A model generated the notes under the pieces. The model worked only from the letters and a program-made list of their open reading frames with translations. It did no database searches and was not told the origin of the DNA. Both the position numbers and the translations under genes were made by a program. A DNA stretch of 64,000 nt from Coriobacteriia bacterium (GTDB lineage Bacteria; Actinomycetota; Coriobacteriia; WRKU01; JAENWW01). The stretch covers positions 1-64,000 of the forward strand of contig JAENWW010000009.1 of the NCBI GenBank assembly GCA_016649875.1, in the 5' to 3' direction. This document shows positions 31,335 to 49,503 of the stretch, piece after piece (within the stretch, counting starts at the first letter, position 1; each line of letters begins with the position of its first letter).

Positions 31335-31467
<133 letters not shown>

Positions 31468-31490
31468 TTTGTAAGCAATTTGTAAGCGAA
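31468..31490. repeat. Tandem TTTGTAAGC repeat, left (possible integrase arm sites)
   Basis: TTTGTAAGCA followed by ATTTGTAAGC gives two GTAAGC cores 11 bp apart, immediately inside attL. The same arrangement with one mismatch occurs at 36632-36654 near the right end, in the same orientation. Paired short repeats inside the att core are typical of arm-type binding sites of tyrosine integrases. Confidence 0.55.
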
Positions 31491-31558
31491 GCACTTTTGT
31501 ATTCTTTCCCACCTATACAATTTTCCCCTTACTGCCAGCAAATGCCGTCCACCTCACC

Positions 31559-31587
31559 TATAATAATTAATTATTCAATTAATTATT
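31559..31587 (+). promoter_or_regulatory. -10 box and AT-rich inverted repeat before the PIN gene
   Basis: A TATAAT (31559-31564) overlaps the inverted repeat AATAATTAA-N8-TTAATTATT (31562-31587), which ends at the ribosome-binding site of the PIN gene. No good -35 was seen. The repeat could be an operator or a leader hairpin. Confidence 0.4.
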
Positions 31588-31600
31588 GGAGAGACAAAAA

Positions 31601-32779
31601 ATGAAGGATGCTTTGCCAGAATTCTATGATTATCCGCAGCAGCTCATTGATGATCTTTGGGATAATGCCCTTGTTGTCTTTGACACTAATGTTCTTCTAG
31701 ACCTCTATGTTACAGCCACAGATATGACAAAAATGTGGTACAAGCTATTTGAGGCATTAAAAAAAGATGACAGGCTATGGATGCCCTACCAGGTGGCTCT
31801 TGAATACCAAAAAAATCGCGGCAGAATTATTAATAATCGCGAAGCCTCTCTCTCGAATATCGAAAATACTATCAAAAAGGCATATAAATCTATCAGAATG
31901 GCCGCCGACAAAGCGCCCTTTCTCGACATGAATCTAGACAGTTGCTCTGCTGAATATACGAGTTTATTAGATGGTATAAAGGAGAAAGAAAGATACTGGA
32001 AGAAACCAGGTAAAAAAATTACGTACGAAAATGATAGGATCCGCGATGCGCTTGACGCCATATTCTCCGCAGAACTTATTGGGGAAAAATATTCTAAGGC
32101 CCAGCTATCTGAGATATATGATGAGGGCGCCGACAGGTACCCTCGTTTCATCCCACCAGGCTTTGAAGACTCTTCTAAAAAAATTAGCCCGAATAACTGC
32201 GACTTTGACAGCCCCAGTCTTTACGGAGATTTCGTTATCTGGAAAGAACTATTGCGATACGGACGTGAGAATAACAGGTCAATTATATTTGTGAGTAATG
32301 ACCGAAAGGACGACTGGGTATGGGCAGAATCAGGGAAAAAAGAAAGCTTACAGAGTACCCATCCATACCTTAGAATGGAATTTCACACAGAGACTAAGCA
32401 ACATTTATTCGCCTGCTCTTCAACGGAATGTCTACGCAATTTCGAAAATCGATACGCCATCAAGCCAACCGAAGAGTATTTTGAAAAGACTGAGACACTA
32501 CTTGAGCGCACTTCCGAAGAAAAACGTCTTCTTAATCTCGCACTGTTAGATAAATTTACGATAAGCCAAAAGCAACTTATGGATGAATTTTCCAAGCCGA
32601 GTCTTGACACTCTCATGTCAGAAATGAGAACTGACCAACAATGTTTAAGCAGTTTTATGGCCCAAACCAGACCCGCACAAAACCTCCAAGATTTCCTTAA
32701 CAAATTTAATGGCACTGCTATATCTTCTCAAAAAGTAAAAGATACAACTTTCTCTAATGGTAAAAATTTGGGACACTAG
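31601..32779 (+). CDS. PIN-like domain protein (PIN_8 type), element cargo
   Basis: The 392-residue protein begins with a PIN-like nuclease domain. The first acidic motif 'VVFDTNVLLDLY' lies at about residues 25-36, a Glu in 'PYQVALEYQKNR' near 65, and the C-terminal part 'IIFVSNDRKDDWVW' near 232, the PIN_8 signature. These supply the acidic metal-binding residues of a RNase-like site. The final 120 residues are helical and charged. Start at 31601 because GGAGAG precedes it; an upstream TTG lies before that site. GC content is much lower than in the neighbours. Such proteins are often mobile-element cargo with proposed defence or toxin roles; the function here is unproven. Confidence 0.72.
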   Translation: MKDALPEFYDYPQQLIDDLWDNALVVFDTNVLLDLYVTATDMTKMWYKLFEALKKDDRLWMPYQVALEYQKNRGRIINNREASLSNIENTIKKAYKSIRMAADKAPFLDMNLDSCSAEYTSLLDGIKEKERYWKKPGKKITYENDRIRDALDAIFSAELIGEKYSKAQLSEIYDEGADRYPRFIPPGFEDSSKKISPNNCDFDSPSLYGDFVIWKELLRYGRENNRSIIFVSNDRKDDWVWAESGKKESLQSTHPYLRMEFHTETKQHLFACSSTECLRNFENRYAIKPTEEYFEKTETLLERTSEEKRLLNLALLDKFTISQKQLMDEFSKPSLDTLMSEMRTDQQCLSSFMAQTRPAQNLQDFLNKFNGTAISSQKVKDTTFSNGKNLGH

Positions 32780-33839
32780 GAAAAACAGTCGCGTCCAACC
32801 TTTGCCCAACATCCACGTGCGCATCCGGCATTAAGTGCCCATAGCGATCTACAGTAGTTGTAATCGAAGCGTGCCCCAACTGATTCTGAACATACTTCAA
32901 ATTCTCGCCTTGATTGATCAACAGTGAAGCAAACGTGTGCCTGAGGTCGTGGATTCTTATTTTGCGAAGTCCAGCAGCTTTTAAGGCAGGCTCAAAAATT
33001 CGGTGGCGAAGATTTGCGCCGTCTATTATCTTTCCTGCCTCTGTACAAAAAACTAGCCCAGCTTCACTTTTTGGTACAACAGCCAAATGTTCCCTTAATA
33101 CTTCAGTAAGCATTGGAGACATTCCTATTACTCTTATCGCATTCCTTGTTTTCGGCTCCTGAAAAGTTCCATTCCAAACGCTGCGCTTCACTCGTATTGT
33201 GCCGCTTTTCCAGTCTATATCGCTCCATTGCAAAGCCAGCAGCTCTCCCAAACGCATACCGGTAAATATCGCAGTAAAAAACAGCGACCTCCACTCCGGG
33301 CTAAATGCATCAAGAAATATTGGGATTTCCACCGGTGTTAAGGCCTGCATCTCAATAAACTGTCTTCGAGGAGCCTTGACTGCCAGTGCTGGATTGACTT
33401 TGAGATAGTTCCATTCCCCCGCTTGTTTCAGCATACCTTTCAGCAATACCAGTGCCTTTTGGACAGTTGCCGGACTTCGACCCGATGCAAGCCTTTCTGC
33501 CACATACCGCTGAATGTCAGCTGTTGTGATGAAGCTTAACGGCACATCGCCAAAATATGGCACCAGTGAATGAAATATCATGTTTTTGTAATTCAAGAGT
33601 GTCGATGGCTTAACCTGTACCGTCGCATAATCTCGCACCCACTGTTCAGAAAACTTTGGAAATGTAATGGTCTGTATATCTCTATACGTTCCATCCCAAA
33701 CTTCTGACTGTTTGGTGGTCACATAAGCCTCTGCATCTTTTTTTCGTGTTCCGATTGCCTTCGCCCTCTGCTTACCCGACGGATCGCGCCAGTAGGCATA
33801 CCAAATATCACCACGTTTCTTTACAAAACCCCTCGACAT
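32754..33839 (-). CDS. int: Tyrosine recombinase / integrase of the element
   Basis: The 361-residue integrase has an N-terminal arm-binding domain ('RGDIWYAYWRDPSGKQRAKAIGTRKKDAEAYV'-type, abbreviated motif GDIWYAYW...), a SAM-like core-binding domain at about 60-160, and the catalytic domain. The conserved residues are Arg in 'TGMRLGELLALQWSDID', His-x-x-Arg in 'IHDLRHTFASLL', the second His in 'LGHASITTTVDRY', and Tyr in 'DRYGHLM'. Its 3' end overlaps the convergent PIN gene by 26 bp. It would catalyse integration at, and excision from, the tRNA-fMet site. Confidence 0.95.
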   Translation of the reverse strand: MSRGFVKKRGDIWYAYWRDPSGKQRAKAIGTRKKDAEAYVTTKQSEVWDGTYRDIQTITFPKFSEQWVRDYATVQVKPSTLLNYKNMIFHSLVPYFGDVPLSFITTADIQRYVAERLASGRSPATVQKALVLLKGMLKQAGEWNYLKVNPALAVKAPRRQFIEMQALTPVEIPIFLDAFSPEWRSLFFTAIFTGMRLGELLALQWSDIDWKSGTIRVKRSVWNGTFQEPKTRNAIRVIGMSPMLTEVLREHLAVVPKSEAGLVFCTEAGKIIDGANLRHRIFEPALKAAGLRKIRIHDLRHTFASLLINQGENLKYVQNQLGHASITTTVDRYGHLMPDAHVDVGQRLDATVFPSVPNFYH

Positions 33840-33841
33840 GT

Positions 33842-34321
33842 TTACACCTCCTCATATCTTTTTGTTTTTAATAGTCGGTTGACAATCTCTTGTACCAACT
33901 TGCGATCGCCTTTAGTAAGCTTGCCCCACCCATTTGGGCCTGTCTCGATATTGACATGGGCCGCAGCTCCAATAATGCTGTCTATCATTACTTCATGCTT
34001 TGCTTGTGCGTTCAAAAGTTCGAGCATCTGCTCCGGGGCCAAGTTTTCCCCGATGATCTTCATTTGTGGTGACACCGCATCAAACATTTCGGCAAGCCCG
34101 GGTTCGGCCGCTCGTATCTCTGACATAGGGAGTATTTCTTCGAGGGCAAGCTGAAGCACGAATACAAGCTTTAAGAACACATCATCACTGGGCATTTTTC
34201 CCCGTTCGATACGCCCGATATACCCCCTGCTCACCCCAATGAGATCGGCAACTTGTTTCTGCGTCATGTGTAATTTCTCACGCTTTACCGCAAACACTTC
34301 GCCTAATTCTTGTGGATTCAT
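33842..34321 (-). CDS. Xre-family transcriptional repressor
   Basis: The 159-residue protein has an N-terminal helix-turn-helix 'MTQKQVADLIGVSRGYIGRIERGKMPSDD' region at about 19-50 and a C-terminal part rich in Glu and Leu that may be a ligand- or inducer-binding dimerisation domain. Start 34321 is fixed by TAGGAGGAG just upstream; the longer in-frame extension runs through the intergenic operator region. It precedes int by 2 bp, so repressor and integrase are co-transcribed, divergently from xis-rep. This is the layout of satellite master repressors. Confidence 0.85.
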   Translation of the reverse strand: MNPQELGEVFAVKREKLHMTQKQVADLIGVSRGYIGRIERGKMPSDDVFLKLVFVLQLALEEILPMSEIRAAEPGLAEMFDAVSPQMKIIGENLAPEQMLELLNAQAKHEVMIDSIIGAAAHVNIETGPNGWGKLTKGDRKLVQEIVNRLLKTKRYEEV

Positions 34322-34432
34322 TGCTCCTCCTAAAAAGTGGTTACCAACTATTTTTTGGTAACACAACTTGAACCGATGTATTGTGTTACTAGAAAGTAGC
34401 ACAAGTATAGTACCGTAAGGAGGTGAAAAGCA
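34322..34432. promoter_or_regulatory. Divergent control region with two inverted repeats
   Basis: The 111-bp gap between repressor and xis holds GTTACCAA-N7-TTGGTAAC (34340-34362, perfect) and GTGTTACT-N4-AGTAGCAC (34383-34402, one mismatch). The second repeat lies between a TTGTGT (34381-34386) and a TATAGT (34406-34411) that could be the xis promoter, although the 19-bp spacing is long. Both share a GTTAC core and are candidate operators for the Xre protein. Confidence 0.6.
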
Positions 34433-34621
34433 ATGTATGAAGCAATAGAAACAGCAGGAGGTCTGCTGAACGTAACCGAGTTGGCTGCATATCTTAATGT
34501 AAAGCCTAGTTGGATCTACGCGCAACACGCTATGGGGTTTATCCCCTGCGTGCGCGTGGGCCGCTACCTTCGCTTTGATTTAGCAGTCATACTCGAATGG
34601 CTCAAGAAAAATGGTAGGTAA
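34433..34621 (+). CDS. xis: Excisionase-like HTH protein
   Basis: The 62-residue protein has a MerR-like winged helix: 'LLNVTELAAYLNVKPSWIYAQ' followed by 'IPCVRVGRYLRFDLAVILEWL', typical of HTH_17/excisionase proteins. A strong AAGGAGGTG ribosome-binding site precedes the ATG. It overlaps the rep gene by 11 bp, suggesting a coupled xis-rep operon that drives excision and then replication. Confidence 0.88.
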   Translation: MYEAIETAGGLLNVTELAAYLNVKPSWIYAQHAMGFIPCVRVGRYLRFDLAVILEWLKKNGR

Positions 34622-35588
34622 AACCACCGCAGCCGCCGGAGCCTCGCGACGGCTCAAGGCGGCTGCGGTCGCAAGCGCGCAGCGCGAGCGTATTAACCTT
34701 GTAAATACAACATTTTTCACGAGTTCTTCCACAAGAGTCAATCCTATTACTGGTGAAATCTTGCCCTTGCCTACTATTCCACCTGTCTCCATTGGATTTA
34801 TCGAATATCCTGATGGCGGATGTGAGCTTTTCGGGGTACGCAGAATAACAAACAAATCAACTTCTGCCTATCTCGATACTGAAGAGCTCCGCCATGAAGC
34901 AGAAGAAAAGAGCTATGGAAACAAAGAGGCGGAACGACGGGCAGAGGAGCGAACCGAAGTAAACAAGGCACGCTCTACGCAGATGGCCTGTCGGCGCGCT
35001 AAAACCAAAGTACGGCGGATATGTCGCTACTATGGACTTAGCGTCATGGTAACGCTCACGTTTCCCGGTAAAGGTGTGCATGATTACGATGAAGCACTGC
35101 ATTATGTGCAGAAGTTTATTAACGATCACGGGAGTGCGCTTTATCTAGACGGTGTCTATGTGGCCGTCCCTGAGCTCCACCCGAAAGGTCACGGCTGGCA
35201 CTGGCATGTACTGGTACATAGACGTTTTACCTTAGAAGAAAAAGAATGGCTTGACTGGCAATGGACGCTGTTCCTAGAGAGAAAAGGCATGAAGGTCAGC
35301 GGTGGCGCGAAATTTGTACGCATCAACCTTAAAGACTTCAAGAACGCCCGTTCAGGAGCCGCCTACGCCAGCAAGTACATCGGTAAGACCTTTGATAGCG
35401 ATGAACGCCTCAAGAACCGTAAACGCTATCTGTGCTCGCGCAAGATACATGTAGAGGTGAAACACGGCAATGCGTTCAGCCTTGATGAAGTAAGAAATCT
35501 CATATGGCAAATTGACGATGCCTATACGTTTGATTCGAATGAAAACGATGAATGGTTGGGCCCGGAAGTCTTATGGGCTAGTTGGTAA
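34611..35588 (+). CDS. rep: HUH-type rolling-circle replication initiator
   Basis: The 325-residue protein has a HUH-endonuclease core. The strand 'GLSVMVTLTFPGK' near residue 145 is followed by the metal-binding 'HGWHWHVLVHR' near 200 (HxH and flanking His), and a Tyr-containing helix 'SGAAYASKYIGKTF' near 255, which should carry the nicking tyrosine. The N-terminal 130 residues are basic or charged and not recognised. It resembles initiators of small rolling-circle plasmids, filamentous phages and integrative elements. The nick site was not identified. Confidence 0.85.
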   Translation: MVGKTTAAAGASRRLKAAAVASAQRERINLVNTTFFTSSSTRVNPITGEILPLPTIPPVSIGFIEYPDGGCELFGVRRITNKSTSAYLDTEELRHEAEEKSYGNKEAERRAEERTEVNKARSTQMACRRAKTKVRRICRYYGLSVMVTLTFPGKGVHDYDEALHYVQKFINDHGSALYLDGVYVAVPELHPKGHGWHWHVLVHRRFTLEEKEWLDWQWTLFLERKGMKVSGGAKFVRINLKDFKNARSGAAYASKYIGKTFDSDERLKNRKRYLCSRKIHVEVKHGNAFSLDEVRNLIWQIDDAYTFDSNENDEWLGPEVLWASW

Positions 35589-35599
35589 ACAACAAAGAT

Positions 35600-35872
35600 T
35601 TATTCATTCCCAAATTCTTGGAAACCTGAAATTTGAACTTCGAATGGCTCCGGTTCATGAATCTTTATAGTAATTGGCATAATTTTTTCTACTTTTGAAA
35701 AGTTTTCCACCGAAATTCCTACTGGATTTTTTGTTTCGAGGTCATAATAAACTGTCAATCCAACATTAACTTCAACTGCATCTGTACAACTTGATTCTCC
35801 AAGGCCGATATATAAGACATCGGCACCTTTATCATATGCCGTGTGGCTCTTATCTGCTTTTAAGATTTTCAT
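35600..35872 (-). CDS. DUF2283-family protein
   Basis: The 90-residue protein has the DUF2283 pattern: 'SHTAYDKGADVLYIGLG' near residue 10, followed by 'VGLTVYYDLETKNPVGISVENFSK'. Members are small beta-rich proteins often encoded beside putative toxins of the DUF4258 type. The start is 35872; it overlaps the stop of the upstream gene's frame closely (5 bp), indicating an operon. It is convergent with rep (11 bp apart). Confidence 0.75.
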   Translation of the reverse strand: MKILKADKSHTAYDKGADVLYIGLGESSCTDAVEVNVGLTVYYDLETKNPVGISVENFSKVEKIMPITIKIHEPEPFEVQISGFQEFGNE

Positions 35873-35876
35873 TTGC

Positions 35877-36242
35877 TCATGCTCCAGCCTCGCGGTACTC
35901 AATGCTATCATATTTCGATAACTTCGACCCACGCATCCATGAAACAACTATTCCCGGATTCTGTGTATGATCAACAACAACTCGTCTTATTGGAGGCCTT
36001 CCGAGCATAGGTTTATCAATTTTGTAATAAATCTTTCTATTTGGATATTCTTCAACTTTCGCAGTTACATGAATTTGGCTCGGATGCGTTATGCACTCCT
36101 CAGTCTCCGCTATGCTCAACCCGGAAGCGTCCATATGGGCAAAACGCTTCGCTTCTACGGTAGAATTCAACAATATTGCATCTCGTCCAAGTGGGTCTGT
36201 GGCACTAAATATTATTTCGTCTTTATCAGTGTTTCCTTCCAT
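35877..36242 (-). CDS. Small protein of unknown function (possible toxin-like fold)
   Basis: The 121-residue protein is not confidently recognised. It shows 'DEIIFSATDPLGRDAILLNS' and a later 'YPNRKIYYKID' plus 'RRVVVDHTQNPGIVVSWMRG', an arrangement of strands like that in phage-type barrel or DUF4258-like proteins normally paired with DUF2283. It is only 4 bp after the DUF3467-like gene and 4 bp before the DUF2283 gene. A toxin-antitoxin role is inference from this pairing. Confidence 0.6.
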   Translation of the reverse strand: MEGNTDKDEIIFSATDPLGRDAILLNSTVEAKRFAHMDASGLSIAETEECITHPSQIHVTAKVEEYPNRKIYYKIDKPMLGRPPIRRVVVDHTQNPGIVVSWMRGSKLSKYDSIEYREAGA

Positions 36243-36246
36243 AAGG

Positions 36247-36537
36247 CTACTCCTGCTTTTCAGCATCTGAAAGTTTATGATTTAAAATTGCCTCTTTGAG
36301 TTTTGGAAAAAAACTATTCGCCACAATTACTCGCGATGTCAACCTTCCGATTGGCTCGTTCCCCATAGCTTGGCTCATAATATCCAGTGACACAAAATCA
36401 ATTGTCGTCTCATAAGGGCCGCTCGCTATCATAGTATAGTTTGCGTATTCACCCTTTTGGACTGACCCCTCGGCAATAATGGTAAGCTGTTTCTGTTCTA
36501 TTGACTGTTCATTTTTCCCAACACTTTGCTCTGACAT
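36247..36537 (-). CDS. DUF3467-like protein
   Basis: The 96-residue protein has 'GEYANYTMIASGPYETTIDFVSLD' then 'RLTSRVIVANSFFPKLKEAILNH', matching the DUF3467 layout (ANF-type strand, DF strand, then an R-V-V strand before an amphipathic helix). The role is unknown. It is the first gene of a three-gene minus-strand operon inside the element, whose promoter would lie in 36538-36772. Confidence 0.6.
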   Translation of the reverse strand: MSEQSVGKNEQSIEQKQLTIIAEGSVQKGEYANYTMIASGPYETTIDFVSLDIMSQAMGNEPIGRLTSRVIVANSFFPKLKEAILNHKLSDAEKQE

Positions 36538-36772
36538 AATGCCCTCCCTAAATAAACGATATTACGCGTATTATAACCCAAATTTTACAGAAAATGTAAT
36601 CCAAGCTTCTGTTCAAATGCCACTTTAAATTTTTGTAAGCATTTTGTAAGCGAAATTAGCCAAAACTACCTATAACGGGCGATACCAAGAAGGACTAAAG
36701 TATCATTAAAACCCCAGCTCAAAGGCAACAATATGGACTGAAATGGAACTAGCAAGAAACTACTCGAACCAA
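36538..36772. other. Right-end non-coding region of the element
   Basis: This 235-bp AT-rich gap holds the right tandem TTTGTAAGC repeat (36632-36654) and the probable promoter of the three-gene operon on the minus strand. No open reading frame of useful length was seen. It is a reasonable place for attP arm sites or a replication origin, but no origin hairpin was recognised. Confidence 0.5.
36632..36654. repeat. Tandem TTTGTAAGC repeat, right (possible integrase arm sites)
   Basis: TTTGTAAGCATTTTGTAAGCGAA differs at one base from the left copy at 31468-31490 and is in the same orientation, 118 bp before attR. An ACCTATA motif also follows each copy at similar distance. Confidence 0.55.
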
Positions 36773-36873
36773 CTCATAACCCGAAGGTCATAGGTTCAAA
36801 TCCTGTCCCCGCGACCAACAAAAGTGCAGGTGGGAAGCTTAATCGCTTCCCACCTTTTTTGTTTGATTATTCA
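36773..36873. repeat. Right attachment site (101-bp direct repeat, attR)
   Basis: This is the exact copy of 31367-31467: the 3' half of tRNA-fMet from the anticodon loop, CCA, the tRNA terminator and a short tail. It has no 5' tRNA half, so it is not a functional tRNA. It marks the right boundary of the integrated element, about 5.4 kb from attL. Confidence 0.95.
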
Positions 36874-39713: not shown

Positions 39714-40697
39714 ATGAGACAAACGACATCAAGCACAACCGGGAAAACGAAAGAAATCTACTTTGCCGGTGGATGTTTTTGGGGCACGGAGAAATTCTTC
39801 AAGGCGATCCCGGGAGTCGGCGAAGTCGTGAGCGGCTACGCGCAAGGCGGCGTGAGCGAGGCGCCCTCCTACGAATCGGTTTGCACGGGTCAAACTGGAT
39901 GCACAGAGACCGTCAAGGTCGTTTACGACCCGAGCGTCATAAGCCTCGACGCGCTAGTACTCGCGTTCTTCCACATCATCGACCCCACCGTCAAAAACCG
40001 TCAAGGCGCCGACATCGGTTCGCAATATCAGACCGGCATCTATTACACCGACGAGCAAGATTTCGCGGCAATCGACAAGATCATGCACATCGAGGACGCC
40101 ATCCACGGCGGCATCAGAGTCGAAGCCGAAAAACTCACGCACTTCTATCCTGCTGAGGAATACCATCAAGACTATCTCGCAAAAAATCAGGGCGGCTACT
40201 GCCACGTGCCCCTCTCGGCATTCCGCACGATCGACGAAATCGTCCATGAGGCGAACCGCCTTGGCCTCCCCACCGATCAAGCCATTATCGAGGCGTTTGC
40301 TCCCGAGGAGTATCGCGTCACGCAACTCGGCGCGACCGAGGAGCCGTTCGCCCATAAATACGCCGGTTCGATGGAGCGCGGCCTCTACGTCGACATCACC
40401 ACAGGCGAGCCGCTCTTCACAAGCGACGACAAATATCTCAGTTCATGCGGCTGGCCGGCGTTCACCAGAACCGTCGATGAGAACGCCGCGGTCGAAAAAG
40501 TGGATACCTCCCACAACAGGGTGCGCACCGAGGTCCGCAGCTCACAGGGCGACGCGCATCTCGGCCATGTCTTTACCGGCGACGCCGAATCCCCCAACGG
40601 CACGCGCTACTGCATCAACGGCGCGGCGCTGCGGTTTATCCCCTACGATGACCTCGAAAAAGAGGGCTACGGAGAGTACCGCGACTACATTGTTTAG
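39714..40697 (+). CDS. msrAB: Fused peptide methionine sulfoxide reductase MsrA-MsrB
   Basis: The 327-residue protein repairs both S- and R-methionine sulfoxide. The MsrA domain (about 15-170) starts 'EIYFAGGCFWGTEKFF', with the catalytic Cys in GCFWG. The MsrB domain (about 195-325) has 'SSCGWPAFTR', 'SQGDAHLGHVF' and the catalytic Cys in 'RYCINGAALRF'. The zinc-binding CxxC pairs of one MsrB class are absent. The start at 39714 follows GAGAGGAGGC. The codon use is like the core genome, in contrast to aor. Confidence 0.95.
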   Translation: MRQTTSSTTGKTKEIYFAGGCFWGTEKFFKAIPGVGEVVSGYAQGGVSEAPSYESVCTGQTGCTETVKVVYDPSVISLDALVLAFFHIIDPTVKNRQGADIGSQYQTGIYYTDEQDFAAIDKIMHIEDAIHGGIRVEAEKLTHFYPAEEYHQDYLAKNQGGYCHVPLSAFRTIDEIVHEANRLGLPTDQAIIEAFAPEEYRVTQLGATEEPFAHKYAGSMERGLYVDITTGEPLFTSDDKYLSSCGWPAFTRTVDENAAVEKVDTSHNRVRTEVRSSQGDAHLGHVFTGDAESPNGTRYCINGAALRFIPYDDLEKEGYGEYRDYIV

Positions 40698-41098
40698 CAC
40701 GGCTATCAAACGCAACACAATGCAGGTGTTCCTTAACAGAATGGGCTATGACCTTGTCCAAAAATGAACTACAATCCTGCTCGGCGGTGTCGTCTGGCCC
40801 GCATAAAACGTGTTCTACAACACATTTTCGGGCAAGACAACGACTTATGCCTTAACGAAGGAGCTAGAACCAGACGCAATTTCACGTGCTGAACGGTTGG
40901 CGCGCTCATGATTTTGATTTGCGTCTGTTGCTTCTTGGTTGATTCAACCGAGACGACAATGTCGCAAATCAAAGGACAGCTAATAGACATAGCCAAAAAT
41001 CAGGGCACCTTACTTCCAAGCATAATTGTATCCGCATCTCCTGCGAAAACACTTGTTATCGAAAAGTTTGAGATATTATTTAAAGTAAATCTCGCTTG
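40698..41098. other. 401-bp intergenic region without a recognised gene
   Basis: This stretch between msrAB and the convergent orphan gene has short open frames on both strands with no family resemblance and no good ribosome-binding sites. No clear terminator hairpin was found after msrAB. The first 100 bp resemble the core genome in composition and the remainder is AT-richer, suggesting decayed sequence next to an acquired gene. Confidence 0.4.
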
Positions 41099-42619
41099 CT
41101 ATTTCATAAAATATCCCATGGTCAATGAAGCAAACGAAAGTAACACCGATATTAATGCAACAATGATGGCAATTTTTTGAGTTCTTCTATTTGAAATTAC
41201 ATTAGAAAAATTAGTTGACGCTATAAACATGTTCTCAATGTGATTTGAGACCATCTCTACTTCTCGGGAGCGTAAGCGTTGATATGAAAAGATTTCTTGG
41301 TTAAAGCTTCTAGGATAGTGGGGGTTATCCTGAAATAAATGGATTTCTTTCTTTTCATCTTCCATATATGAATCTGGCAATGCATCAACATCTTTGCACA
41401 CGGACAACATGCCAAAGATTTGAGCCAATAATGTTCGTTCAGCCTCTTTCATCGCTTTGTTGGCGCCTTTATTGTTATTTGCTGCAATTGCATCCCTAAC
41501 GGAAGACAATTCGCAATAATAATCATCCAAAAGACAAGATAAGCCCCATTTTGCCATGAGGACTACGAGTTTGCGATTGCAAACAGCACCTATGCTTTGT
41601 CGAGTAGAACTACGTTTTAATCCTAAAAATTCGATAATCGCGCCATATCGACAGCCAATTATCATTCTGTGCTGGTTATTTCCTATCGGAGCCACAACTC
41701 TTGCCGCCGCACATCCTCGAAACCTCCATATCGAAGAACTATCCCCAAATCCTAAAAGCTTAAAAGCTCCAATCTTACTTAACAATGGCGAATATGGATC
41801 ATCATTTTCCGTAACGCATAACAATGCCGTTGGCGGCAATCTAGTCTCGCCAAATTTATGCTCTCCGGGAAGATATTTCGCAATCCAATCAGTGCACGTA
41901 TGTTCCATATCCTCAAGAACTTTATTTCCCGCTAAATTGAATCCAAGGGTTGGGCCACCAATTTGAAGGCATGCATTCTGATATTTTTTTATACCGAACA
42001 GATATTTGACCATTTTCGCAGGCGTATCTAAGCCCATAATTACTGTCTCTTTATAGTCTGCGGAAAGCGGCGCTTGCAACTTCCCAGCTAAGGAAGGATT
42101 GATTTCAAATCCAAATACCACTGCAGTAAGACTTGACGTTAGCGAGACAAGCGTGGCCTCAATTCTATCTACGCCATTTGGAATTTCAAGTCTCTTATTC
42201 TCGTGTCTTTTCCTGTCAATGCTAAAGAGGCAAAGTTCATCTATAACAGCGTGATGCCGATAGTTCGCAACCGTATCTGCCAATGAAGAGCCGAAACCTG
42301 CACTGGAAATCCCAAGCAATTGAATTTTCTCTACAAACTGAATTATTGTTGACGATGAATAATACTCAATAGCCCAGACATATGGAATGTCAAGACGTTC
42401 GCCCTGAGGCAGACGATTCTTATCATTGTCCTTTTTTGCATTTTCATCAGAAATCCATCGATGCTCACGATGACTGCTCAGGTTGTATTCAATTTCAAAC
42501 TTTGTATCAATACAGTCTTTTATGAAAAATATTCTCTTCCACACCTCATAACGATTCAACTTGCGAAATCTTTTATTGTCTAAAAAGCTCCAAAATTTGT
42601 GTTGCAACACATCTACCAC
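41099..42619 (-). CDS. Orphan 506-residue protein with C-terminal membrane anchor
   Basis: I do not recognise this protein. It is soluble for about 480 residues, with acidic and aromatic stretches and no P-loop, HTH or nuclease motif that I can identify, and ends in one transmembrane helix (about 480-503, 'KIAIIVALISVLLSFASLTMGYF') preceded by basic 'NRRTQ', the layout of a tail anchor. Isolated, AT-rich and flanked by 401-bp and 604-bp gaps, it looks horizontally acquired. A defence or membrane-surveillance role is possible but only inference. Confidence 0.6.
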   Translation of the reverse strand: MVDVLQHKFWSFLDNKRFRKLNRYEVWKRIFFIKDCIDTKFEIEYNLSSHREHRWISDENAKKDNDKNRLPQGERLDIPYVWAIEYYSSSTIIQFVEKIQLLGISSAGFGSSLADTVANYRHHAVIDELCLFSIDRKRHENKRLEIPNGVDRIEATLVSLTSSLTAVVFGFEINPSLAGKLQAPLSADYKETVIMGLDTPAKMVKYLFGIKKYQNACLQIGGPTLGFNLAGNKVLEDMEHTCTDWIAKYLPGEHKFGETRLPPTALLCVTENDDPYSPLLSKIGAFKLLGFGDSSSIWRFRGCAAARVVAPIGNNQHRMIIGCRYGAIIEFLGLKRSSTRQSIGAVCNRKLVVLMAKWGLSCLLDDYYCELSSVRDAIAANNNKGANKAMKEAERTLLAQIFGMLSVCKDVDALPDSYMEDEKKEIHLFQDNPHYPRSFNQEIFSYQRLRSREVEMVSNHIENMFIASTNFSNVISNRRTQKIAIIVALISVLLSFASLTMGYFMK

Positions 42620-43223
42620 CCCTCCACGTTTCGAGGCGAATAATTCACACGCAGTTAACGATGTCTCCCAAGAACGATAAAATCTCTAGGTACACATTTC
42701 TATCTTTTTGCTATCCAATGTGCACCTCTAAATTAATCAAAAATCGATATAGGAACAACGCTGGAGCTAACACTCCACAATAAATACCCCATCAAATCTT
42801 ATGCAGCATATTCATAATAAGTTAGTAAAAGCCTATTTACGAAATTATGGGCGTTAACGCAGCGCCATTCCACTAATATACTAGCAATCCTGCGTTAATT
42901 GGTGCAACATGCCGCTGTGCCTCACAGATTGTCCATTTGTTCATTACAATATAAGCGCTGAGTAAGTAGCTTGAACATTAAAACAGCCATAAGTTAATCG
43001 AGGCAAGCCGCACTCATCTCCAAATCGCTCGTGAAGTTTCTCATCGAAACATTTTCAAAAACACTATTTGCATAACATATCGCTTCAAAATTTAACAGGC
43101 TGAATAATACCCGCAGCCTGTTAGAGGATAGTTTGACCCGATGTGCCATGCTAAAATAAGCACCATCTACCATCGATATCTCATAGCCGCTTGTTTTTGG
43201 CTATCAGGACAAGGACACCATCC
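42620..43223. other. AT-rich 604-bp gap before mnmA
   Basis: No open reading frame with a plausible ribosome-binding site was found. The only structure seen is the perfect inverted repeat TAACAGGCTG-N11-CAGCCTGTTA at 43093-43123; without a T-tract it is not a clear terminator. The mnmA promoter probably lies after it. The region may be the decayed flank of the acquired orphan gene. Confidence 0.45.
43093..43123. repeat. Perfect 10-bp inverted repeat
   Basis: TAACAGGCTG and CAGCCTGTTA are exact complements separated by 11 nt, about 100 bp upstream of mnmA. It could be an operator or a hairpin ending an upstream transcript; nothing decides between these. Confidence 0.5.
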
Positions 43224-44306
43224 ATGAACAATCGCGCCATAATCGCCATGAGCGGCGGTGTGGATAGCTCGGTCGCCGCGTATCTGACCATCTCGCAAGG
43301 ATACGAGTGCGTCGGCGCGACCATGAAGCTTTTCAACAACGAAGACATCGGTCTCTGCCGCGAGGACTCCTGCTGTTCGTTCGAAGACGCCAAAGACGCC
43401 AAGTGCGTGGCCGCCAAGCTGGGCATGCCGCACTACGTGTTCAACTTCTCCGACAAGTTCGAGAGCGAAGTCATCCAGCGATTCATCGATGCCTATCGCC
43501 ACGGGCGCACCCCCAACCCCTGCATCGATTGCAACCGCTACCTCAAGTTCGAGCATCTCCTCAAACGTGCCGAGGAGCTCGACTACGACACGGTCGTCAC
43601 GGGGCACTATGCGCGCATCGAATGGGACGAATCGCGCGGCAGGTTCCTCCTCAAGAAAGCCGTCGATGAGACGAAGGACCAAAGCTACGTCCTATACACC
43701 ATGACGCAAGACCAGCTCGCGCACACCAGACTCCCCCTCGGGGGCTTGCGCAAAACACAGGTGAGGAAAATCGCCAAAGAGCAGGGGTTCATCAACGCGG
43801 ATAAAAGTGAGAGTCAAGACATCTGCTTCGTGCAAGACGGCGATTACGGCGCATTCATCGAGCAGCATTCCGACTTGGACAATGCCCCCGGAGACTTCAT
43901 CGATGTGCACGGGGACAAGCTCGGAACGCACCGCGGAATCATCCACTACACGGTCGGGCAGCGGAAAGGCCTGGGCGTGGCAGCCGCGCAACCGTTCTAT
44001 GTCAAAGAGATCCGCGCGCTGGAGAACACGGTCGTATTGTGCGAACAAGAAGGCCTGTATTCGAAGAGTTTGTCGGCCGATCGTGTCAACATGATCGCCG
44101 TGGAAAAGCTCGACGGTCCCACGCGCTTGCAGGTCCGCACCCGCTATCGCCAAGAGGAACAATGGGCAACCGTCATACAGACCGGCCCCGACTCACTTGA
44201 AGTGACGTTCGATAAGCCGCAGTGCGCAATCGCTCCCGGTCAAGCCGTCGTGCTCTATGACGGCGATATCGTGGTCGGCGGCGGAACGATAGTCGTTAGC
44301 GAGTGA
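43224..44306 (+). CDS. mnmA: tRNA 2-thiouridine(34) synthase MnmA
   Basis: The 360-residue enzyme thiolates U34 of Glu, Gln and Lys tRNAs. The PP-loop 'IIAMSGGVDSSVAAYL' lies at residues 6-21. The catalytic cysteines are in 'NPCIDCNRYLKFEHLL' near 99 and 'ESQDICFVQDGDYG' near 203. The C-terminal 'PGDFIDVHGDKLGTHRGIIHYTVGQRKGLG' region contacts tRNA (only part quoted: GTHRGIIHYTVGQRKGLG). The start at 43224 follows an AAGGAC; a longer reading to 43191 adds non-conserved residues. Confidence 0.96.
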   Translation: MNNRAIIAMSGGVDSSVAAYLTISQGYECVGATMKLFNNEDIGLCREDSCCSFEDAKDAKCVAAKLGMPHYVFNFSDKFESEVIQRFIDAYRHGRTPNPCIDCNRYLKFEHLLKRAEELDYDTVVTGHYARIEWDESRGRFLLKKAVDETKDQSYVLYTMTQDQLAHTRLPLGGLRKTQVRKIAKEQGFINADKSESQDICFVQDGDYGAFIEQHSDLDNAPGDFIDVHGDKLGTHRGIIHYTVGQRKGLGVAAAQPFYVKEIRALENTVVLCEQEGLYSKSLSADRVNMIAVEKLDGPTRLQVRTRYRQEEQWATVIQTGPDSLEVTFDKPQCAIAPGQAVVLYDGDIVVGGGTIVVSE

Positions 44307-44385: not shown

Positions 44386-45269
44386 ATGGGCAAACCAAAT
44401 GAACTTGTCATATTCAGTACGATGGATGAGCAAATCTCTCTACCGGTAAAAATTGATGATGATACGGTCTGGCTGACGAAAGACCAGATGGCAGATTTAT
44501 TCAACCGAGATAGAACAGTCATCTCTCGTCACATTACCAATATCTACAAAGAAAACGAGCTTGACCAAGAAACAACTTGTGCAAAATATGCACAAGTTCA
44601 AACTGAAGGTGAACGCAAGGTCTCTCGTTCTGTTGATGTGTATAGCCTCGACGTAATCATTTCAGTCGGATACCGCGTAAAATCACAACGTGGTGTTGAG
44701 TTCCGTCGCTGGGCCAATAAAATCTTAAAGGAATATATTACTCGAGGCTATGCGCTCAATGCCACTCGACTCGAGCAGCTTGGCACAATTGTCAAGCTCA
44801 TGAAACGCACCGCCAATAGCCTCGACGCGCAACAAGTTCTCGGTGTTGTAGAGCAATACTCACGCGCCCTAAATATATTAGATGACTATGACCACCAAAG
44901 AATCACGAGGCCGGATGGCACCCCTGCAATATATGTACTTTCATATGAAGAGTGCGTTACGCTTATAAATAAAATGAAGAATCACGAAACAAGCGATTTG
45001 TTCGGACACGAAAAAGATGAATCGCTCAAAGGGAGCATCGGGGCCGTCTATCAGAGTTTTAAGGGAGCCGACCTCTATTCGTCCGTTGAAGAAAAGGCTG
45101 CAATGCCGCGCTCTTTCTCTATTTCTTGGATAAGAACGAGATATTGTTCATCAATGACAAAAAACTAATCGATGACTACACTCTCGTCGCTATCACGATA
45201 ATGATTGCTGAGTCTCGGCCGAAAGAGAAAGAAATAATGATTAGCTTGGTTATGAATTCTTTAATGTAA
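44386..45269 (+). pseudogene. RhuM-Fic gene with the Fic active site deleted
   Basis: The first 240 residues are an intact RhuM-type N-terminal domain, with 'QMADLFNRDRTVISRHITNIY', 'VDVYSLDVIISVGYRVKSQRG' and 'FRRWANKILKEYITRGYALN'. At about 45105 'SSVEEKAA' breaks into an unrelated 20-residue tail ending at 45168. Two bases over, the frame resumes 'NAALFLYFLDKNEILFIND' and ends at 45269, the normal C-terminus of the Fic domain. The segment that should carry the catalytic HPFxDGNKR loop is missing between the two, so a deletion of several tens of bases shifted the frame. The product cannot AMPylate. Confidence 0.85.
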
Positions 45270-45862: not shown

Positions 45863-47824
45863 TTATTCCGTTTGTGCTGCGAGGAACTCGACCAACGCAT
45901 GCGAACTCATGGGGCGTGCATAGTAAAATCCCTGAATTTTGTCGACTCCGCACTCCTTGACCAACTCGTCCTGCCCTGCGTTTTCGACGCCTTCGGCCAC
46001 CACTTCCATACCGATAAGCTGAAAGCTGCTCGTGAGGGATTTCAAAAGATGGCCCATGCCTTCGCTTTCTTTAGCTGCCCATATTAGGCTGCGATCGATT
46101 TTAATCGTCTCGAAGGGCATACGCATAACGCGGGTGAGATTGGAGTAATCCGTCCCGAAATCATCGAGATGGAATCCGAAACCGAGCATATGCAAATCAT
46201 TCATATGCTCATAAACTCGAGCCGGTTCACTTGCAAACGTTCGTTCGGTAATTTCAAATTTAATACGGCTCGGTTCAATTGAGTACTCGTCCACGAGTGC
46301 TTTGGCACGGCGCGTCATATTGTCTTCGATGAGTTGATGCATCGAAAGGTTGACGGAAAGAGACTCAAGCACAGAATTCGGATTTTCCGCAAAAAAGCGG
46401 CATGCCCTCTCTATCGTGTACCATCCGATTTGCACAATAAGATCACTCTGCTCGGCGACAGGGATGAACTCCTCAGGAGATACCGGCGTACCGTCGGTAT
46501 CGTTAAGGCGAATTAAGAGCTCGGCGACAACGTAGCGATTCACACTGCAAGAATACAGCGGTTGAAAAACAACGGTGAAACAATCCTCGGCAAGCGCATT
46601 CTGCATCAGTTCGATCAGGTGATCCCGTCGCGCGGAAGCAGCACGGATATCGGAAAAGTGCGCAAGCTCGGGCGTCACGATCGCGTCGACGGGTTCTCCT
46701 GTTTTTTCATCTCTGACCATGAGAGGCTTATATTCCAGTGCCGCCAAAATATCGTTCCCGTTACCGTCCGAACAAGGACAATCGATATCGGCGAGGCTCA
46801 CCATGACGGTGCATTGGACCCCCGAAATCGTCCAAGGCTCTTTGAAGCGCTCCAGTATACTCACAAGATATTCGTTATAAGAATCTTTCATGGTACCGTC
46901 ATCAAAAATGATGACGGAAAAGTCTGATCCCACGGTCCGAAACGCGGTCATATTCAAATCCCGACCGAGTAGTCTGATTATCCGTGCAATTTCTTTCAGT
47001 AATTCATCACCGAAATACTGTCCGTACCGACGATTTATTCGACGAAATTTTCGCAACCCTATCATAACCACATGAAAAGAATCGGCATGCGCACTGTGAT
47101 GTACGAGCGCATCGAGGAATGCATCTCTGTCACCCAGCCCCGTGAGCGAATCGACATAAACTTGATGATTTTGAAATGTGATGAAAAGAATGAGAAGCAC
47201 AAGTGCCATGACCGTTCCCGAAAGAAGAATTTCAGGGAAAATAATCTGGACGCCGATTCCGACGACGCCGATAGGGAAAATCAAGGCGAGCGCCAGTAAC
47301 ACCGGCCGTTTTATTCTTTTCCGTTCGAGAAACACATACGCGAAAAATATTCCGGAGTAGAGCGCCACAAGCATCCCGGGAGATTGGTAGTACCGACCGC
47401 GAATATATTCTCCCTTTCCGTTGAAACTAAACACCAGATGGGTGGCCGAAGTCGAAAACAACAGGCCGAGGTAGAGAACATACAGTGCCCCCATGGCCAT
47501 GAGCATTCTCCGCTGTGATTGTTGAATGACGCTCGATGCGTGTATGAGCAGAGAAAGATAGAGCAGTATCGACGCTCCGACCAAAGGAATTGCCATATAT
47601 CCCGCATAGTTGAGCAAGGCGTTCATCCACTGCGGGGCAAGCGTCGGGTTCGTTATGGTGAATGTCGTGGCAATGTCGAGAACTGTTGCGACGAGTCCGA
47701 GAACGATACTCATGCGAAACACAAACATACGCCCGGAGGGGAACGTCCCGCTGGGTCGCGAATAGAACAACAATATCATCAACAAAACACAAGCGATATA
47801 TTCAGGTGCGGAATTCCACTGCAT
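45863..47824 (-). CDS. Membrane-bound degenerate GGDEF - EAL protein
   Basis: The 653-residue protein has about seven N-terminal transmembrane helices (roughly 1-215), a GGDEF-like domain (about 220-370) and an EAL domain (about 400-650). In the GGDEF domain the active-site loop reads 'VGSDFSVI', so it lacks GG(D/E)EF and should not make c-di-GMP. The EAL domain keeps 'LDDFGTDYSNL', 'KIDRSLI', 'VAEGVEN' and 'QGFYYARP', but the first motif is 'AELLIRL' (E-L-L for E-A-L); Glu is retained, so phosphodiesterase activity is possible. The start at 47824 is preferred because GAGG precedes it. Confidence 0.85.
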   Translation of the reverse strand: MQWNSAPEYIACVLLMILLFYSRPSGTFPSGRMFVFRMSIVLGLVATVLDIATTFTITNPTLAPQWMNALLNYAGYMAIPLVGASILLYLSLLIHASSVIQQSQRRMLMAMGALYVLYLGLLFSTSATHLVFSFNGKGEYIRGRYYQSPGMLVALYSGIFFAYVFLERKRIKRPVLLALALIFPIGVVGIGVQIIFPEILLSGTVMALVLLILFITFQNHQVYVDSLTGLGDRDAFLDALVHHSAHADSFHVVMIGLRKFRRINRRYGQYFGDELLKEIARIIRLLGRDLNMTAFRTVGSDFSVIIFDDGTMKDSYNEYLVSILERFKEPWTISGVQCTVMVSLADIDCPCSDGNGNDILAALEYKPLMVRDEKTGEPVDAIVTPELAHFSDIRAASARRDHLIELMQNALAEDCFTVVFQPLYSCSVNRYVVAELLIRLNDTDGTPVSPEEFIPVAEQSDLIVQIGWYTIERACRFFAENPNSVLESLSVNLSMHQLIEDNMTRRAKALVDEYSIEPSRIKFEITERTFASEPARVYEHMNDLHMLGFGFHLDDFGTDYSNLTRVMRMPFETIKIDRSLIWAAKESEGMGHLLKSLTSSFQLIGMEVVAEGVENAGQDELVKECGVDKIQGFYYARPMSSHALVEFLAAQTE

Positions 47825-47837
47825 GCATAACCTCATA

Positions 47838-47855
47838 GTGCCTGCGCGCAGGCAC
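47838..47855. promoter_or_regulatory. Perfect 18-bp palindrome upstream of the EAL gene
   Basis: GTGCCTGCG/CGCAGGCAC is a perfect palindrome 14 bp upstream of the chosen start. It could be an operator for a dimeric regulator; its position would let a bound protein block translation initiation or transcription. Its regulator is unknown. Confidence 0.5.
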
Positions 47856-47888
47856 ACGGACTTGATATATTAATATGGGCGGCCTTCC

Positions 47889-47979: not shown

Positions 47980-49503
47980 CTAATCTTCGACCGGTGTTTC
48001 ATCCCACGTTTCGGCGATATGGCGCAACTCCGAAGAAATAGTATCACGGGCGACGCCCATCATCTTTTTCGCCGTGGAGCCATCGACCAAATCCGACTCG
48101 AATTTGCCCAATTCCCACAGCATTATCTCAATCGCCTCGGCAGCAGACACCCGTCCATCATCCGCCAATTTATAGAACGGATGTTCGGTATTGCACCTCA
48201 GCTCGGTCTTCCCTTTATCTTTCGATGCGTTCCACAACGAACCGTCTCCGACGGGCTTTGCCGGCGAAACCCAGATATCCGCGCGCGATGCTTTCTTCGG
48301 TTCGGCTTTCTCTTTCCGCACCTTCTCGGGGCTTTCGGAAACGGGAGCGCTCTTGCTGAAAAAGTTTTGCTCCTTCTTTTTATTCAGCTCAATCTCAGAG
48401 CGTCTCTGTGCGGAGGCAAAGCCCAGCGCGACGGTTTTAGCAAACCTGTCGGTGAAACCTTCCCGCGCCGTAACCGAATCCTTCTTGTAGTCGATTTTCA
48501 ACACTTCGTCGAGCTGATAATCCATGTCGAGCGCGGCACGCAGGTAGTTCCCCGAAGGATGCTTCTCCCGCAAGCCCATCCACCCTTGGTGGGATATTAT
48601 TCGATTATTGCGATAGATGTAAACACCCTGATTACCCATGGTGATATTCGCGCGCTTGAAAGACTCGCTACTTGAAAAATCATCTTTCTCGGACAACAAA
48701 ACAAGTGTGAACTTATAGCCCCCGATTGTTTCGTCGCGCTCATCCAATACATTGTATGAAGTGGAACTGAGAATCTCAGTCGCCCTTTCGAACTCACAGA
48801 GAGGATTACTCGCTTTGAGCGGTTCGTCGTTTATGTAAATGTCGATGTTTCGGGCGCGCTCATCATGCTTGTCGAGAAAACGATGAAACGTCATCGAGGC
48901 GTGTTGCGAGAACTTTTTGGCATAGGCGTTGATTTTACGCTTACGCGACGATTCCTCGCGTGCGGCATCTTTGTCGAAGAGGTGGTCGATTTCATCCCAC
49001 CAGATGAGTGTTCCCGTCTCTCTATCGACGAAATTATCGAGAAAGGCACGCTCTTTCGCATTTTCCAACTCGGTCACACGACAGCGCCATATGCTGTTGT
49101 TCTTGATGTCGTCGAGGTCGAGTACGCCGCGCCAACACGTATGGAGTTCATCACGCGTAAGTATGAGAATCCTACGGCAAAACGCCGTGGAAGCCGTCTT
49201 GAGCCCGATACCGAATTTTCCGAGGCGTTCTTCACTCGCCGAATCGATTGACCCGTACGTCAGAGCTTGAGCGATTTCGACACGACTCATGCCGCAACCG
49301 TTATCGGCAATGTAGATGGATGGCTCCAAATACGAGTCGAGGCCGATATTGACATATATCTCAGTTGCTCCGGCATCGATGGAGTTATCGACCAAGTCTG
49401 CCATCGCATCGACGAATTCATAGCCGGCCGCGCGCAACGTTTCGCTTAAGCCACCTGCTACAGGCGGAATCTCGATATAACCTTCTTTATCAAACTGAGC
49501 CAT
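47980..49503 (-). CDS. GHKL ATPase-domain protein (MORC/MutL-like HATPase_c_3)
   Basis: The 507-residue protein has a Bergerat ATP-binding fold. Motif I is 'ADLVDNSIDAGATEI' near residue 35, motif II 'YIADNGCGMSRVEIAQALTYGS' near 68, and motif III 'RLGKFGIGLKTASTAFC' near 93. After a transducer-like domain (to about 380) there is a Lys/Glu-rich linker, then a helical C-terminus with 'VSAAEAIEIMLWELGKFESDLV'. It is neither HtpG nor a histidine kinase. MORC-like GHKL proteins handle DNA or nucleoprotein, and some occur in defence loci. No partner gene is adjacent. Confidence 0.75.
   Translation of the reverse strand: MAQFDKEGYIEIPPVAGGLSETLRAAGYEFVDAMADLVDNSIDAGATEIYVNIGLDSYLEPSIYIADNGCGMSRVEIAQALTYGSIDSASEERLGKFGIGLKTASTAFCRRILILTRDELHTCWRGVLDLDDIKNNSIWRCRVTELENAKERAFLDNFVDRETGTLIWWDEIDHLFDKDAAREESSRKRKINAYAKKFSQHASMTFHRFLDKHDERARNIDIYINDEPLKASNPLCEFERATEILSSTSYNVLDERDETIGGYKFTLVLLSEKDDFSSSESFKRANITMGNQGVYIYRNNRIISHQGWMGLREKHPSGNYLRAALDMDYQLDEVLKIDYKKDSVTAREGFTDRFAKTVALGFASAQRRSEIELNKKKEQNFFSKSAPVSESPEKVRKEKAEPKKASRADIWVSPAKPVGDGSLWNASKDKGKTELRCNTEHPFYKLADDGRVSAAEAIEIMLWELGKFESDLVDGSTAKKMMGVARDTISSELRHIAETWDETPVED

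Follow-up and report, generated by a model that had tools for sequence, protein, structure and literature searches.

The open reading frame at 41099..42619, on the minus strand of the window (the whole 64,000-nucleotide stretch of a Coriobacteriia bacterium contig that was analysed), encodes a protein that sequence comparison places in a new, rare and unnamed bacterial family. Most members carry a CorA-like stalk that runs into one membrane helix, and we propose by analogy with known effectors, at a probability of roughly 0.45, that the protein is a mobile, stand-alone, single-helix sensor-effector that would act at the membrane against viruses. We infer that an antiviral role is probably the likeliest single reading of its function.

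The frame holds 506 codons counted from its first GTG. Reading the sequence by eye, we found a GGAGG 10 nt ahead of the GTG at 42610, which is codon 4 and the probable true start; the 506 residues of the original prediction thus stand as codons on the minus strand, but the protein likely has 503. In the region 40698-43190, the open frame extends over 528 codons, compared with a maximum of 197 when the region was shuffled 500 times (first-order shuffles), and its first codon positions are G-rich. Because the frame far exceeds the shuffle maximum and has G-rich first positions, we conclude that the ORF is coding. Its GC content was 39.4%, against 52.2% for the window and below all 313 same-size sliding windows across the 64 kb, which bears out the AT-rich composition reported earlier. 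The flanking genes are housekeeping genes, msrAB being convergent (39714-40697) and trmU/mnmA divergent, with an ATG at 43224 read by eye as the trmU start. The gaps between them, previously called large, measure 401 nt downstream (40698..41098; 44.1% GC) and about 0.6 kb upstream (42620..43223; AT rich, 39.8% GC), and a promoter scan of the upstream region performed no better than shuffles. Three other genes of the same neighbourhood were noted: a RhuM-family gene just after trmU (44386-45168; PADLOC candidate PDC-S23, E 4e-96), a gene for a GGDEF-EAL protein (45863-47857), and one for a GHKL/HATPase protein that resembles the N-terminal part of MzaB of MZA defence at E 8e-40, far under the cut-off (47980-49503).

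Four regions were delimited in the protein, all encoded on the minus strand and the first two with approximate boundaries. Alignments indicated an N-terminal soluble region of residues about 4-360 (41540..42610) that carries the family motifs W..E, SLTAV and W....LPG, and alignment together with a structure model indicated a helical region of residues about 361-435 (41315..41539). A predicted stalk helix follows at residues about 436-482 (41174..41314), inside the family stretch that matches the CorA stalk, and the single C-terminal membrane helix, the tail anchor of the original prediction, was recovered at residues 483-501 (41117..41173), the position of the first CorA transmembrane helix (TM1), with a hydropathy of 2.56 and 5 residues left after it. 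The basic flank of a membrane helix faces the cytosol under the positive-inside rule, and the 15 residues preceding the helix include three K/R and no D/E; therefore, the large part of the protein is predicted to be cytosolic. Searches with the window protein gave no family match in Pfam or PADLOC, a best E of 1.3 in PHROGs and a best E of 0.084, under the cut-off, in NCBIfam, in agreement with the earlier statement that it has no recognised domain, and a match to a common metabolic family was looked for and none was found.

Scans for close relatives of the window protein gave no match in the genome or viral collections, nor did tblastn searches of plasmids and phages with a threshold of E 0.01. 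At E 10, tblastn again gave no match in phages and gave a single match in plasmids (E 2), located on a Paracoccus plasmid, which opened the family: the Paracoccus relative is colinear with the window protein, equal in length and equipped with the same C-terminal helix. Relatives from Agrobacterium and Novosphingobium were found next, followed by those from Rhodococcus and Arthrobacter, a prophage contig, and Comamonas. An eighth distant relative, from a genome of the same phylum as the window (G206), was found with a profile that contained the window protein, and the family is counted here as nine sequences, window protein included. It is named by none of Pfam, NCBIfam and PHROG; no publication describing it was found, as judged from titles and abstract beginnings, and no literature was found on accession WP_174019557.

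Because the first match was picked for its likeness to the query, the family was retested without the Paracoccus relative, and a leave-one-out test was also run. Hold-out HMMs of three, six and seven other members, G206 entering only the third, recovered the window protein with E values of 1.7e-9, 6.7e-24 and 3.3e-23, respectively (Z=1e5), with scores of 39-87 compared with at most 7.1 bits in 2000 shuffled copies. Moreover, the hold-out match was retained at E 7.4e-21 (Z=1e5) when the last 100 residues of the window protein were removed. We conclude that the orphan status assigned by the original prediction falls, as the remote-homology search has found a family. Among the candidates rejected, a low-scoring match with a 523-codon frame (L005) was antisense to a long aconitase-like frame, as judged by eye, a further candidate (L027) was antisense to a membrane-protein frame, and an Embleya match was dropped since no family-like frame was present there. 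Additional viral collection scans gave the same prophage contig again or no match. A Xanthomonadaceae MAG (L026:8279-10441) contains only the 3′ end of a family gene, 154 residues in length, near a frame that resembles a phage-type integrase, and this fragment was left out of the nine-member count.

A single C-terminal membrane helix was predicted in 8 of the 9 members, the window protein among them, and none was predicted in the Rhodococcus copy. Structure prediction, which had been proposed for the window protein, was run with mixed results. The single-sequence fold of the protein itself reached a mean pLDDT of 34 and was set aside; the Comamonas relative, modelled from a four-row alignment, reached a mean pLDDT of 51 and a pTM of 0.52. 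The Comamonas model has an alpha/beta N-terminal part, to which no named fold was assigned, followed by helices at 341-382, 388-403 and 407-416 and by a 77-residue helix at 442-518. Foldseek against the PDB placed CorA, CmaX or ZntB at all of ranks 1-18 and the superfamily including Mrs2 in 23 of the top 25; for this pLDDT-51 model, the best E was 1.9e-3 and the TM-scores of the top-listed rows did not exceed about 0.3. A second look with VIA gave CorA a maximum Z of 9.0, level with syntaxin Habc and further helical bundles (Z about 9), such values being common for long helices by VIA's own note. In its listing no single family stood out, and the N-terminal region may have another fold.

An independent and stronger test of the CorA link than the structure search is the comparison of sequence profiles. 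An eight-sequence family profile, which left out the Rhodococcus copy, matched a CorA profile over 66 columns (score 54, 86.9%, E 4.2e-6 for one comparison), and the alignment covered the stalk and TM1 and ended at the YG of YGMN, where the GMN motif would begin. The CorA set consisted of 28 loci in which GMN was required in the last 60 residues, and the 24 loci of at least 290 residues were used in a shuffle test. When the stalk and transmembrane parts were compared, the score was 45.3, whereas two decoy sets peaked at 26.2 and 28.5, each made of 200 block-preserving shuffles of the CorA stalk and TM rather than of natural coiled-coil and TM families. Two disjoint halves of the family scored 41.6 and 41.5 against the same CorA part. 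The signal belongs to the family as a whole: the window protein alone gave no match to the CorA stalk profile, a subset of the window protein (P0001) and the Novosphingobium and Arthrobacter members scored only 28.1, and none of the 9 members exceeded the cut-off of the curated Pfam model PF01544, the best CorA E being 0.16. In a PADLOC scan of the family, a CorA-like model, which we take to stand for the CRISPR CorA effector, was the only match, found in 2 of the 9 members at E of 1 or less (best E 0.0044) and not in the window protein, and in a viral library search a phage Mg2+ transporter ranked first. The CorA N-terminal domain alone scored 13.3 against the family, which is no sequence match, and the low-confidence model aligns with it in part. 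Neither GMN nor a second C-terminal membrane helix was found in any of the nine members, and therefore a CorA-type pore cannot be assumed.

One alternative is that the CorA likeness arose by convergence and reflects nothing more specific than a long helix that leads into a membrane helix, a reading that overlaps the others discussed below and is silent on defence. Consistent with convergence, the VIA scores tie with syntaxin and gp41-type bundles and the single-sequence scores are weak; the agreement of the two disjoint family halves and the distance of the observed score from all 400 block-preserving shuffles of the CorA stalk and TM argue against it. We regard convergence as a serious contender that nonetheless falls short of an even chance. 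We conclude that, at the family level, the profile match shows a stalk and helix that appear either to descend from the stalk and TM1 of CorA or to be a close imitation of them, and that the family is a variant of CorA-like membrane effectors and not a member of the CorA channel family.

To describe the distribution of the family, related genomes were searched. No member was detected in any of 98 other relatives of the window genome, 13 of which share its order, whether by single sequence or by profile, and conservation at the same locus was accordingly found in 0 of 98. With up to three candidates scored per genome, profile searches found one other genome of 396 in a sample of the phylum (G206) and no others among 398 genomes sampled from the phylum to which the Comamonas genome (G754) belongs. 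Among the genomes of the order, trmU was present in 13 of 14 and msrAB in 4 of 14, and synteny was uninformative. The family is sporadic and horizontally moving, and its sporadic presence together with the atypical composition of the gene therefore points to lateral acquisition of the window gene, as the original prediction had supposed and as the location of some family members on mobile elements also supports. Five of the nine members came from the plasmid collection, and one came from the viral collection; plasmid location is therefore no evidence in itself, and the apparent mobility is partly a selection effect. The window also contains an element integrated at tRNA-Met (31367-36873) that is bounded by perfect 101-nt repeats at 31367 and 36773 and carries a PIN_8 protein, a tyrosine integrase, an HTH regulator and a REP_ORF2-G2P replication protein. 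The element ends at 36873 and excludes the ORF under study, which rules out the window gene as cargo of that island.

The neighbourhoods of the family members were surveyed. In Novosphingobium, the gene is divergent from an adjoining complete Gabija pair (GajA, E 3.8e-228; GajB, E 2.8e-185). In Agrobacterium, it is flanked on one side by a SIR2 protein with an LmuB-like SMC ATPase (Lamassu-like) and on the other by an HsdR-N protein; a DUF2290 protein is encoded farther out. The Arthrobacter gene adjoins an AlbA_2/Schlafen-domain protein (E 1.4e-5), and the Paracoccus gene resides on an 8.5-kb mobilizable plasmid with RelE/RelB. In Comamonas, the order is tRNA-Phe, integrase, Toprim-domain protein and family gene, which describes an integrase/primase element whose possible boundaries are two direct repeats of 26 nt, located at 1313 and 12920 and sharing 96% identity. 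On the prophage contig, the gene lies past Rz-, amidase- and tail-like frames assigned by eye. The Rhodococcus plasmid copy (L018:7992-9296) is a truncated one that stops short of the membrane helix, and none of the genes annotated around it is a defence gene; the G206 gene sits on a 3.5-kb contig beside two small regulator-like frames. At L025, four neighbour frames scanned first gave no match, and the other strand was scanned next. As raw counts, 2 of the 9 members adjoin recognised defence systems, with 1 more suggestive; cargo of a prophage or integrative element accounts for 2 of the 9. What had been an unassignable orphan becomes a testable nine-sequence family, and the two members that adjoin known defence systems do so on named plasmids. 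We conclude that the defence-type layout of the original prediction gains support by analogy, from a CorA-like stalk as in CRISPR CorA and from relatives beside Gabija or Lamassu-like genes.

The most likely mode of action would be that of an oligomer at the inner membrane, with the large N-terminal cytosolic region sensing a phage product or signal. Rearrangement of the stalk would then cause the membrane to open or lose its integrity, a mechanism put forward for CRISPR CorA upon activation by SAM-AMP, and the resulting damage or gating would halt the infected cell. A bolder and more doubtful extension is that the family represents a new class of immune effector, independent of both CRISPR and metal transport, in which a CorA stalk with no membrane helix but TM1 is joined to a new sensor domain. 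Such effectors would spread through at least two phyla by way of plasmids, prophages and satellite-like elements, and a one-helix oligomer, in place of a GMN pore, would disrupt the membrane.

Other functions would fit parts of the evidence. The protein could mediate superinfection exclusion without cell death, as an anchored protein that blocks DNA entry or the assembly of competing phages; the single membrane anchor, the relative that follows lysis-like prophage genes and the one in an integrase/primase element are consistent with this idea, but the conserved soluble region of ~350 residues and the long stalk seem more than an entry blocker needs and relatives are found in defence neighbourhoods too, such that we consider it unlikely. 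Less probable still is an accessory protein that derives from CorA and works in ion homeostasis or membrane stress, for example as a regulator or partner of a metal channel, and that is mobile for non-defence reasons. Such a role would suit the CorA-like stalk and TM1 and the lack of any PF01544 match in the window genome or in the 13 other genomes of that order; the sporadic presence, the missing GMN and TM2 and the two relatives beside known defence systems speak against it. The least likely of the functional alternatives is a membrane-tethered enzyme, such as a nuclease or nucleotide hydrolase, with a fold missed since the family is thin: no fold was assigned to the alpha/beta region, but the residues invariant in all 9 aligned members are P, F, W, G and R, with no invariant D, E, H, K or C. 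Finally, a spurious frame in AT-rich DNA, which the atypical composition and the absence of close relatives from the genome, viral, plasmid and phage searches with the window protein might suggest, runs counter to the frame length and G-rich codon positions described above and is already excluded by sequence homology, the remote homologues being colinear across residues 51-501.

The preferred reading, an antiviral membrane effector, was compared with known systems. CorA/ZntB/Mrs2 channels (PF01544; CmaX, PDB 7nh9) share with the family a stalk helix running into TM1; unlike them, the family lacks GMN and TM2, has an unrelated N-terminal sequence and is about 500 rather than about 320 residues long. 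The anti-phage transmembrane effectors of satellites and prophages (PMC9122126) resemble the family in being single genes with a membrane helix, and some relatives likewise occur in a prophage, an integrative element or a defence neighbourhood. Unlike known anti-phage effectors, the family has the weak CorA-like match as its sole match in PADLOC.

The closest functional parallel, by analogy, is the CorA effector of type III CRISPR systems. No Cas10 match (PF22335, one model) was obtained in the window genome (G000, 98.2% complete), and no cas genes were recognised among the scanned neighbours of the relatives. The same model gave weak matches in G754 and a strong match in G206 on another contig, the Cas10-like protein there being encoded on a separate 3.4-kb contig (L085:818-3295). 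Passages of PMC10600005 describe the CRISPR CorA effector as combining a unique N-terminal domain with a CorA-related C-terminal part, and passages of that paper and of PMC11229360 state that the effector requires its membrane part for immunity and presumably opens or disrupts the membrane once SAM-AMP binds. Judged from those passages, the effector and the family have in common a large N-terminal soluble domain, a CorA-like C-terminal membrane part and a patchy distribution; they differ in that the family has a single membrane helix and that the similarity is limited to about the last 90 residues. If the antiviral reading is true, CorA-like membrane effectors would also exist outside type III CRISPR, and an immune effector would need no more than one membrane helix of CorA design, a point of relevance to the mode of action of CRISPR CorA itself.
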